NCBI GenBank assembly: GCA_015521735.1
Contig: WANQ01000023.1
Span: 127,169 to 167,191 of the forward strand
Source: Pyrodictiaceae archaeon
Lineage (GTDB): Archaea > Thermoproteota > Thermoprotei_A > Sulfolobales > WANQ01
DNA: 40,023 nucleotides
Reading direction: 5' to 3'
Part shown: piece after piece, positions 9,319 through 11,799 of the stretch
Position numbering within the stretch: the stretch's first letter is position 1
Layout: each line of letters starts with the position of its first letter
Notes under the pieces: generated by a model
Told to the model about the DNA's origin: nothing
The model's input: only the letters and a program-made list of their open reading frames with translations
Databases searched by the model: none
Position numbers and translations under genes: made by a program

Positions 9319-9395
9319 GTAGCCTTGAAACAACTTGAGGAGAAACACTTATCTTCTCAGGAAGGCTACCCGTATCTAGAGGCGGGAACTCTAGA
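9319..9395. repeat. Nested and serial inverted repeats in the leader of the DUF234 ATPase
   Basis: GTAGCCTT (9319-9326) is exactly complementary to AAGGCTAC (9362-9369), and within the loop GAGAA (9340-9344) pairs with TTCTC (9354-9358). A second repeat, TCTAGAG (9375-9381) and CTCTAGA (9389-9395), has a 7-nt loop, ends on the A of the ATG and covers GAGG in its left arm and loop. The set could fold in the transcript and block ribosome access, or act as an operator between the divergent primase and ATPase genes. Confidence 0.5.
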
Positions 9396-10807
9396 TGCGG
9401 GCCCACATAATAGATAGGGCTAGTGAGTTAAAGGTTCTTGAACGTGAATGGTCTAGTAAAGGCTTTAGACTAATCATCATTTATGGTAGGAGGAGAATAG
9501 GTAAGACCTTCCTATTGAAATATTTTGTAAGTAGTAGAAACCATATATACTTTACAGCTATTGAAGCATCCAAAGACATACTATACAATGAGTTATCGAA
9601 GCTTGTTTCAGAGAAGTTTAATGTCCGCGTATTATTCAATAACATTGACGATATACTAGACTTTATAGTAAAGAATAGTAGGGATAGAATAGTCTTCGTT
9701 ATAGACGAGTTCCAATACCTCGTACACTCAGATCCAGAAGCCCCCTCAAGAATTCAGAGATTCATTGACGAGAACCCTAATGCCAACATAGTATTAGTGC
9801 TCTGTGGATCAGCTGTATCATTCTTTGAAAGAGAACTACTAGGCTACCGAGCACCATTATTTGGTAGAAGAACAGCAACACTAAGGCTAAAACCCATGAA
9901 ATTCCTAGATACATGGATGTTCTACCCCAGCTACAACGCCATAGACGCTATTAGAGCATACTCAGTATTCGGCCCTACACCAGCATACGCTAAATTCGTC
10001 GACGACTCCAAAACATTAATCGAGAACATAGTCGACAACATTCTAAGGAAAGGCTCATACCTATACAGTGAAGCCATAGACGTACTAAGACAGGAGGTTA
10101 GAGAAACATCAACTTACTCCTCAATACTAAACGCTATAGCACTAGGCTACACCAAGGTATCCGAAATAGCTAGCCTAGCAGGAGTATCATCTAAAACAAT
10201 ATCAAAATACCTACAACTACTAGAACAACTAGACATAATCGAGAGAACCAGATCTCTTGGTAGAAGAGGTGGTGAAGTAAGAGTAGAAATCATAGACCCA
10301 TACTTCCTCTTCTGGTACAAATACGTTAAACCAAACCTAAGCTACCTAGAACTAGAAATAGTAGACCCAGTAAAAGAGAGAATAGAAAAAGAACTAGACC
10401 TACACGTAGCAAGAGTCCTAGAAACACTTGTTAGAAGAGAACTAGTATTCGACATACTCATACCAAGAATAATAAAGCTAGACATAGTCGAAGTAGGTAA
10501 ATGGTGGTACAAGGATAAGGAAATAGACGTAGTAGTTAGAGGTACAGGCAAAACAGTATTCATAGAGGTAAAGTGGAGTAACGTAAACCTAGGAGAAGCA
10601 GAGAAAATATTAGATAAGCTAGAAGACAAGGCACTATCATCAAAACTACTTAAACCAGAAAACTACTACGTACTAGTAGCAAGAAGCATAGATGGCATAG
10701 AAAAACCAATAGAAGTACAAGAACACAGAATACTAGTAGACCTAGCAAAAACACTAGACAACATACATAAAACTAGGATAAACAAGAATACTACAAGCCA
10801 GCCCTAA
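9395..10807 (+). CDS. Archaeal AAA-type ATPase with DUF234 nuclease-like C-terminus
   Basis: A protein of 470 residues of the archaeal ATPase_2/DUF234 family. The Walker A motif is GRRRIGKT (31-38), Walker B is FVIDEFQ (D104, E105), and the sensor-like CGSAVSFFE and FGRR follow. Residues about 240-285 are a winged helix (ALGYTKVSEIASLAGVSSKT). The C-terminal DUF234 part contains EID (D378) and IEVKW (E391, K393), the core pattern of PD-(D/E)xK nucleases. The family is abundant in archaea and its role is not settled; DNA transactions, defence and toxin-like roles have been discussed. A paralogue of nearly equal length lies at 37583-39001. The first third of the gene uses mixed codons, while the remainder is A/C-ending. 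Its start is overlapped by an inverted repeat. Confidence 0.85.
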   Translation: MRAHIIDRASELKVLEREWSSKGFRLIIIYGRRRIGKTFLLKYFVSSRNHIYFTAIEASKDILYNELSKLVSEKFNVRVLFNNIDDILDFIVKNSRDRIVFVIDEFQYLVHSDPEAPSRIQRFIDENPNANIVLVLCGSAVSFFERELLGYRAPLFGRRTATLRLKPMKFLDTWMFYPSYNAIDAIRAYSVFGPTPAYAKFVDDSKTLIENIVDNILRKGSYLYSEAIDVLRQEVRETSTYSSILNAIALGYTKVSEIASLAGVSSKTISKYLQLLEQLDIIERTRSLGRRGGEVRVEIIDPYFLFWYKYVKPNLSYLELEIVDPVKERIEKELDLHVARVLETLVRRELVFDILIPRIIKLDIVEVGKWWYKDKEIDVVVRGTGKTVFIEVKWSNVNLGEAEKILDKLEDKALSSKLLKPENYYVLVARSIDGIEKPIEVQEHRILVDLAKTLDNIHKTRINKNTTSQP

Positions 10808-10927
10808 ACCCCTCACAGCATTAGGTCCAACAAGTAATCCCTAGACAACTAAGTATACCAAACGTAATACTCTCATTGCCCACCCTGATAGGATGTATTT
10901 TACTGCTAGGCCTCTGCTACTATACTA

Positions 10928-10949
10928 TTATACCATATACTTAATAAGG
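10928..10949 (+). promoter_or_regulatory. TATA-like promoter region for the Glu/Trp peptide
   Basis: Two overlapping AT-rich candidates (TATACCATATA and CTTAATAAGG) lie 60-80 nt before the ATG at 11009. They would start transcription near 10960 or 10970, before or after the left arm of the inverted repeat at 10956-10965. Confidence 0.35.
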
Positions 10950-10955
10950 TGGGAT

Positions 10956-11006
10956 ATCTGAGCCTTAAACACGTAGGATAACAGCTAGTTCGAAGGAGGC
11001 TCAGAT
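10956..11006. repeat. 10-bp inverted repeat enclosing the Shine-Dalgarno of the Glu/Trp peptide
   Basis: ATCTGAGCCT (10956-10965) is exactly complementary to AGGCTCAGAT (10997-11006), with a 31-nt loop. The right arm contains the last three bases of AAGGAGG (10993-10999) and ends 2 nt before the ATG. If the left arm is transcribed, the stem would hide the ribosome site. If not, it may be a DNA operator around the transcription start. Confidence 0.55.
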
Positions 11007-11008
11007 CC

Positions 11009-11104
11009 ATGGTTCTATTCCTCGAAGAAGAAGAGGAATGGTGGGAAGAAGAGGAAGAGGAAGAAGAGTGGTGGGAGGAGGAAGAGGAAGAAGAAGAATG
11101 GTAG
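11009..11104 (+). CDS. 31-residue Glu/Trp-repeat acidic peptide
   Basis: A small open frame of 31 codons plus stop, preceded by an ideal AAGGAGG 9 nt before the ATG. After MVLFL the peptide is only glutamate and tryptophan: E5-WW-E8-WW-E8-W, giving 21 Glu and 5 Trp with a 10-residue (30-bp) period. GAA and GAG codons are mixed, which argues against recent slippage and for selection on the amino acids. The TAG stop occupies the place where the second Trp codon of the third unit would be (one base from TGG). No family is recognised. The peptide would be strongly acidic with paired aromatic stripes; binding to metal ions, basic proteins or nucleic-acid-binding surfaces is conceivable but unproven. 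It stands alone between an ATPase gene and a convergent gene, with its own likely promoter. Confidence 0.65.
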   Translation: MVLFLEEEEEWWEEEEEEEEWWEEEEEEEEW

Positions 11105-11163
11105 CCTACCCTAATTTCTACTAGGTATTTTTCCTCCACTACTTTACTCAAAGCAAGCCGGGT

Positions 11164-11799
11164 TTAAGGGTAAATCTTTCTACCAAAACCTTCACGTGTA
11201 CTCGACTGATCATATATTTCCTCTACTACGAATACATATGTAGGATAATTACTCCTACCACGTCTAGGCCTATGATATAAGTCGTGGAGAGCATTCATAT
11301 ACCTTTTATAAGGATCTTCCTGCTCTTCATGTACCTCAACTCTACACCTAACTTCATAGCTAGTATCAGGTGGTGTGTAGAAGAGTAGTGTTGCCTTACC
11401 AGTAGCCCTAATATTCCACCACGAGTGATTAAACGCCATTTCCAGTCCACCAAGCTTTGTAAAATCAACTACTTCCTCACGGTAAAACTCCTCTAAAAGC
11501 ACTTTAGCTACCTCCCTCAACCCCTTCCTAGGAGCCTCGTAGGCATAGTACTCAGCTTTCCCAGCAAGCTCTTCAATATACTCGTTACGAGGTACTAGTC
11601 CAACCATTTTAACACTTCCACTTAAACCCCTAGGACCATAAGTAATAACAACTGGTGTAGTACGCGTAAACTCTACCATGAGCTTCTCAAAACTCAACTG
11701 CTCTCCACGAGCAATTCTCTCCAACAACCTCCTACGTGCATAAAACACGTAGTCTACATACTCTACTGGTAGCTTACCCAAAACCATACACCAAGACAC
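11164..11799 (-). CDS. Unrecognised 211-residue protein
   Basis: The product has no signal peptide or membrane helix. The N-terminal half is helical with basic patches (YARRRLLERIARGEQ), the middle has ARG/PRKGLREVAKVLLEEFYREE, and the second half looks beta-rich (ATGKATLLFYTPPDTSYEVRC) followed by an acidic helix and a His/Arg-rich stretch (LHDLYHRPRRGRS). I do not recognise a family; the beta region is faintly like flavin-binding split-barrel proteins, but there is no diagnostic motif. The start is uncertain: GTG 11799 has AGGT very close, while ATG 11787 (MVLGKLPVEY) is also plausible. It lies downstream of the NikR-like gene on the same strand, 82 nt away, behind a TACAC/GTGTA inverted repeat, so it may belong to the same metal regulon. 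Confidence 0.65.
   Translation of the reverse strand: MSWCMVLGKLPVEYVDYVFYARRRLLERIARGEQLSFEKLMVEFTRTTPVVITYGPRGLSGSVKMVGLVPRNEYIEELAGKAEYYAYEAPRKGLREVAKVLLEEFYREEVVDFTKLGGLEMAFNHSWWNIRATGKATLLFYTPPDTSYEVRCRVEVHEEQEDPYKRYMNALHDLYHRPRRGRSNYPTYVFVVEEIYDQSSTREGFGRKIYP

Follow-up and report, generated by a model that had tools for sequence, protein, structure and literature searches.

A conserved family of glutamate/tryptophan peptides in Thermoproteota, often encoded beside ABCE1

Introduction

Can an open reading frame that encodes almost nothing but glutamate and tryptophan be a gene and, if so, what might its product do? Such a frame lies within a 40,023-nt stretch of the genome of a Pyrodictiaceae archaeon (hereafter, the window). 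It occupies positions 11009..11104 of the plus strand, with an ATG at 11009, 31 sense codons and a TAG at 11102-11104, and it encodes MVLFLEEEEEWWEEEEEEEEWWEEEEEEEEW. After the residues MVLFL, the layout is E5-WW-E8-WW-E8-W, written in mixed GAA and GAG codons over an imprecise 30-bp repeat (81% matches by TRF). A Shine-Dalgarno (SD) motif, AAGGAGG (10993..10999, plus strand), stands 9 nt ahead of the ATG. A sequence-only reading had drawn attention to the composition, the ORF bounds and the spacing of this motif, and all are as it described them. We refer to the ORF and its product as EW.

Results

EW is widespread in Thermoproteota. A GAR/TGG pattern detected EW in 29 of 59 relatives, while the same pattern read backwards, used as a control, had no match in any of the 59. 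A DNA search raised the number of carriers to 43 of 59. A slightly wider pattern, applied to 214 genomes from the window's order, found EW in 122, representing 53 of 78 genera and usually at one locus per genome; a stricter pattern matched 122 of 398 genomes sampled from Thermoproteota. The window's own genome has no second copy in the 2.03-Mb assembly searched. Since the patterns miss divergent members, these prevalence figures are a lower bound. The carriers comprise hundreds of genomes within this single archaeal phylum. Among the matches listed from a GTDB-wide scan are Ignisphaera, Pyrodictium, Thermogladius, Zestosphaera, Desulfurococcaceae and Thermofilum, together with Bathyarchaeota, Caldarchaeum, Wolframiiraptor, Brockarchaeota and Methanomethylicota. 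Family labels (f1-f68) are those assigned by the search tool, and counts are not corrected for phylogenetic non-independence; we read f11 as Sulfolobaceae-like.

EW ORFs share a common anatomy. Across 134 distinct ORFs, length ranges from 18 to 62 aa (median 31), with a composition of 68% E, 15% W and 3% F. The N terminus is short and hydrophobic (often MxF, MVLF or MKWL) and is followed by Glu runs split by W or WW. Successive aromatic residues are mostly 4-9 positions apart, with a distance of 1 in WW pairs. Members of f4, f5 and f11 also use F, L or D, and D, E, W and F occur mixed in Sulfolobaceae-like members. The C-terminal residue is W in 102 ORFs and F in 14 (116/134), against an aromatic share of 19% in the chain as a whole, and the terminal tripeptide is EEW in 101 and EEF in 14 of the 134. 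Stop codons are TAG, TAA and TGA in 57, 56 and 21 cases. The sequence-only reading had remarked that a single base separates the stop of the window's ORF from a Trp codon. This is literally correct (TAG/TGG), but it does not mark a truncation: a stop after Trp is found family-wide, which rules out recent truncation of a longer repeat. AlphaFold models EW as a single helix (pLDDT 94); this is weak evidence, because many Glu-rich peptides are called helical.

EW resembles part of the amino-group carrier LysW, which has a short acidic tail and a Trp near its C terminus. EW lacks a zinc-ribbon domain, and the window ORF has no Cys. Only members of f33 (L284 5891-6157, minus strand; L270; L271) carry a LysW-like zinc ribbon (CPICD...CPSCG) with an EW-type tail, which suggests either a fusion of EW with LysW-like carriers or convergence.

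Selection acts on the encoded peptide. The pairs in an earlier count of synonymous and nonsynonymous differences had been pre-selected by protein similarity; we therefore recounted with pairs picked by genus alone. These same-genus pairs differ by 237 synonymous and 19 nonsynonymous codon changes and by 50 whole-codon gaps; neutral mutation of an EW sequence would be expected to yield only 12-24% synonymous changes. Nearly all of the 19 amino acid changes fall in the N-terminal hydrophobic leader or are E/D exchanges. We regard the synonymous excess as strong, although we attach no formal test to it because alignment is biased toward matching codons and the pairs lack independence. The suspicion of protein-level selection raised by the sequence-only reading is thus upheld, with change in the Glu/Trp part almost exclusively synonymous and indels of whole codons. 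That reading would have been refuted if sister genomes had lacked a homologue with the ORF preserved; on the contrary, the ORF is intact across the phylum.

Expression signals are enriched ahead of EW. TATA-like hexamers occur at -65..-30 in 66% of 133 homologues, compared with 13% in shuffled sequences; for SD-like motifs at -20..-5, the shares are 50% and again 13%. Judged from these sequence motifs, the enrichment suggests that EW is transcribed from a promoter of its own, as a leadered message. For the window itself, a candidate TATA box, CTTAATAA (10940..10947, plus strand), is inferred 62-69 nt before the ATG.

A low-complexity GA-rich repeat, open by chance, could in principle produce such an ORF, given that the DNA is a simple repeat and the frame is short. 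It would not be expected to keep its frame phylum-wide, to change synonymously or to alternate its codons; nor would it account for the enrichment of promoter and SD motifs, the conserved position and the conserved end. Neighboring GAR codons match each other in a smaller share of cases than expected (0.43 observed versus 0.50), which argues against slippage, and a slippage or microsatellite origin is ruled out by this codon alternation together with frame preservation across the phylum. We therefore give the chance repeat next to no credence and consider it nearly certain that EW is a real and conserved gene, even without transcript, ribosome-profiling or proteomic data. We conclude that EW is a genuine micro-protein gene, transcribed independently and ancestral to much of Thermoproteota, with the reservation that transcript data are lacking.

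EW peptides represent a previously undescribed family. No Pfam or NCBIfam family matches EW at E values up to 1, and PDB sequence and fold searches with EW returned nothing useful, in line with the sequence-only reading, which knew of no such family. We found no description of an EW family in the open-access literature; subscription journals were outside the scope of this search. Some public records may hold EW under an anonymous “hypothetical protein” label.

In the window, a 9-bp inverted repeat, ATCTGAGCC...GGCTCAGAT (10956..11006, plus strand), could form a 5' hairpin whose 3' arm overlaps the SD motif, and of three sister genomes in the window's family, two have a shorter predicted hairpin ahead of EW. 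There is no family-wide hairpin (mean z of homologue 5' leaders, -0.07), so the window's own is probably incidental. Rfam has no match at E values up to 1 within window positions 10700-11300; with no Rfam match at the locus and no hairpin common to the family, a structured RNA was rejected. An antisense Ser/His ORF (10906-11151, minus strand) was dismissed because the sense strand accounts for the conservation, without a separate test of antisense conservation. The upstream neighbor (9395-10807, plus strand) is an archaeal ATPase_2 gene with DUF234, typical of solitary archaeal ATPases. Convergent with EW is a gene for a 211-aa protein without a Pfam match (11164-11799, minus strand); its homologue lies ~2.8 kb from EW in a sister genus, so the family preserves part of the local gene arrangement.

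EW is often encoded just upstream of ABCE1. ABCE1 is the ribosome-splitting enzyme, the ATPase of ribosome recycling. In a view centered on EW (49 neighborhoods, 27 families), it is the commonest neighbor: 12 of the 27 families have it downstream on the same strand, at distances of 28 to 1098 nt. In a view centered on ABCE1, 20 of 47 loci chosen regardless of EW contain the micro-ORF upstream, at most 1.2 kb away and in the same orientation. This second view added nine families (f12, f13, f26, f28, f40, f41, f42, f45 and f53), so that the arrangement is met in about 20 families in total. A relaxed composition scan gave at most one match per locus in 60 neighborhoods (759 kb in total); because no second match arises in any of them, the adjacency is not due to chance. 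The identity of ABCE1 is confirmed by a Fer4_RLI match for two of the downstream genes, from the distant families f20 and f11.

The pairing belongs to a larger and ancient gene cluster. A Zn_ribbon_RPB9 gene lies between EW and ABCE1 in loci of f16, f43 and f55, and a CGI-121 (KEOPS) gene is part of the same cluster. We read other members as S17e-like, MoaD/ThiS-like, phosphoribosyltransferase, FBPase and TIM genes. Since the neighbors also include CGI-121, S17e-like, phosphoribosyltransferase and Zn-ribbon genes, the linkage of EW to ABCE1 can reflect the inheritance of an old operon.

EW and ABCE1 are not always linked. In the window's own genome, EW is on contig 23 and ABCE1 on contig 26, and the two are likewise unlinked in the window's family, f4, f5, f22, f31, f35 and others; in f9, EW is intact and ABCE1 divergent. 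Four families (f15, f47, f51 and f64) have ABCE1 without an EW found beside it. For f51 and f64, no whole-genome pattern match to EW was seen, and for f15, a match in four genomes may be the tail of an unrelated membrane protein. No EW-ABCE1 (“Rosetta stone”) fusion was found in the ABCE1 proteins inspected, including those of lineages without linked EW.

A candidate C/D-box sRNA is also found near ABCE1. At L304 (5054-5111, plus strand; G000, contig 26), it lies on the strand opposite ABCE1, 88 nt upstream of that gene. The candidate occurs in 21 of 58 other relatives, with one copy per genome and a conserved guide (ATGATGAGTGGTGACGGC...CTGA). Many copies adjoin ABCE1; in f2, f7 and f10, the candidate is placed between EW and ABCE1 on the opposite strand. 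Its Rfam matches (sR17, sR1 and sR11) are all sub-threshold.

Discussion

The EW product most likely functions in trans, as a protein, since the gene stands alone in the window's genome and in several other families. Its separation from ABCE1, its apparent own promoter and the intervening C/D-box sRNA candidate all argue for a trans-acting protein, while the recurrent adjacency, the strongest lead to function, points to a role connected with ribosome recycling or with ABCE1 itself. We tentatively propose, somewhat short of an even chance, that EW is a trans-acting acidic-aromatic helical peptide that serves ABCE1 or ribosome recycling; this mechanism is inferred, without binding data. The Glu runs, spaced Trp residues and C-terminal Trp would suit a peptide whose Trp residues slot into hydrophobic pockets with basic surfaces around them. 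The product would thus be a short, strongly acidic and probably helical peptide, whose regularly spaced and C-terminal Trp residues may dock in such pockets while the Glu runs touch basic surfaces on ABCE1, on the 30S subunit or on a factor for ABCE1 maturation. The outcome might be help with ribosome recycling or re-initiation, or with the loading or handling of ABCE1.

Two eukaryotic systems offer functional analogies. In eIF3j/Hcr1, which binds eIF3b, an N-terminal acidic motif centered on Trp docks in a hydrophobic pocket (PMC2824034), and eIF3j/Hcr1 is cited as assisting ABCE1 in ribosome recycling (PMC7196836). EW is likewise an acidic segment with conserved Trp, a likeness of composition only: eIF3j/Hcr1 is a larger eukaryotic protein with further domains, whereas EW stands alone as a peptide of ~31 aa in which Trp recurs, with only ~5 N-terminal residues beyond its E/W part and no detectable homology. 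In Lto1, a C-terminal Trp (Phe in some organisms) is essential and recruits the CIA targeting complex for Rli1/ABCE1 (PMC4523923). EW shares the acidic-aromatic end and the ABCE1/Rli1 link, although Lto1 and CIA are a eukaryotic system. Against the CIA targeting tripeptide, [LIM]-[DES]-[WF] (PMC10623007), the second-last residue of EW fits and the third-last, Glu, does not. Measured by these features, EW fails defining characters of both systems.

Several other readings of EW must be weighed. The sequence-only reading had offered, as guesses, a binder of metal or protein or a nucleic acid mimic. EW could be a cis leader, whose Glu-rich nascent chain destabilizes the ribosome and tunes downstream ABCE1 as a feedback on recycling capacity. 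Acidic N-terminal nascent chains are known to abort translation in bacteria and eukaryotes (intrinsic ribosome destabilization; PMC9718836), and EW resembles MgtL-type leaders (PMC9718836) as an acidic short ORF upstream of a function-matched gene, on the same strand and within 28-500 nt in many families. The model is attractive where EW precedes ABCE1, but it cannot explain unlinked EW genes. Unlike MgtL-type leaders, EW persists without the downstream gene, which means that cis action is not required: EW is intact where ABCE1 lies elsewhere, as in the window's genome and in f4, f5, f22, f31 and f35, or where ABCE1 is divergent, as in f9. In f2, f7 and f10, the sRNA candidate separates the two genes, and TATA-like sequences follow the EW stop. 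A strict C-terminal Trp would be unexpected in a leader, and Pyrococcus furiosus proteins show no avoidance of D/E (PMC9718836). We consider cis action quite unlikely. Very unlikely, in our judgment, is a Lto1-like adaptor that helps insert the Fe-S cluster into ABCE1. The EEW/EEF ends (116/134), the ABCE1 adjacency and the precedent of Lto1, where W (or F in some organisms) is needed for Rli1 maturation (PMC4523923), speak for it. Besides the mismatched Glu, however, the internal Trp residues of EW are equally regular, no GX3 repeats and hence no deca-GX3 motif of Lto1 occur in EW family sequences, and the tripeptide is reported to be absent from archaeal Fe-S proteins (PMC10623007).

A broader role is unlikely but keeps more weight. 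EW could be an acidic hub, Dss1/Sem1-like or a nucleic acid mimic, that binds basic surfaces or OB folds beyond ABCE1 (in chromatin, repair, RNA polymerase or the proteasome), with its ABCE1 neighborhood merely historical. Dss1/Sem1 is very small and acidic with spaced aromatic residues. EW shares these traits, with D, E, W and F combined in Sulfolobaceae-like members, and it is retained when unlinked from ABCE1. Yet EW consists almost only of Glu and Trp and matches no Pfam family, hence no curated acidic-hub family, and the adjacency common to most families is to ABCE1 rather than to repair or chromatin genes. Our preferred reading, held with less than even confidence, remains that EW is an undescribed, phylum-wide TACK translation factor, a partner of ABCE1 in recycling or in ABCE1 maturation, which annotation missed because of its small length and low complexity. 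If this is true, a protein of ~30 residues made almost entirely of two amino acids, under purifying selection throughout a phylum and positionally linked to ABCE1, would constitute a conserved component of a new kind, probably one that belongs to the translation machinery. Little is known of the partners of ABCE1 in archaea; EW provides a specific candidate that is easily tested in cultivable Sulfolobaceae. It also warns that conserved genes can be hidden by low-complexity filters and length cut-offs.

EW-like sequences outside the main set are of several kinds. The strict pattern gave one match in 2.9 million viral contigs, and a viral origin was rejected. Among the matches listed from the GTDB-wide scan, bacterial ones are mostly acidic tails of longer proteins. 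Nitrosopumilus-type long membrane proteins (L096, L099, L105, L171 and L175) end in LEEEWEEEEEL straight after a transmembrane segment; these tails are EW-like in composition but probably unrelated. The matches listed also include two looser look-alikes, one from a Thermococcus MAG and one from an Asgard-labelled MAG. The former is a 74-aa ORF (L091 4675-4899, plus strand) with an E/D/W/F stretch at its end; it lies close to a Cdc48-like gene and is a possible euryarchaeal counterpart of EW. The latter is a stand-alone ORF, MPVIDREPYEEDEEEDWE...EDW (L150 7547-7705, minus strand), adjoining genes that we read as acyl-CoA carboxylase subunits.
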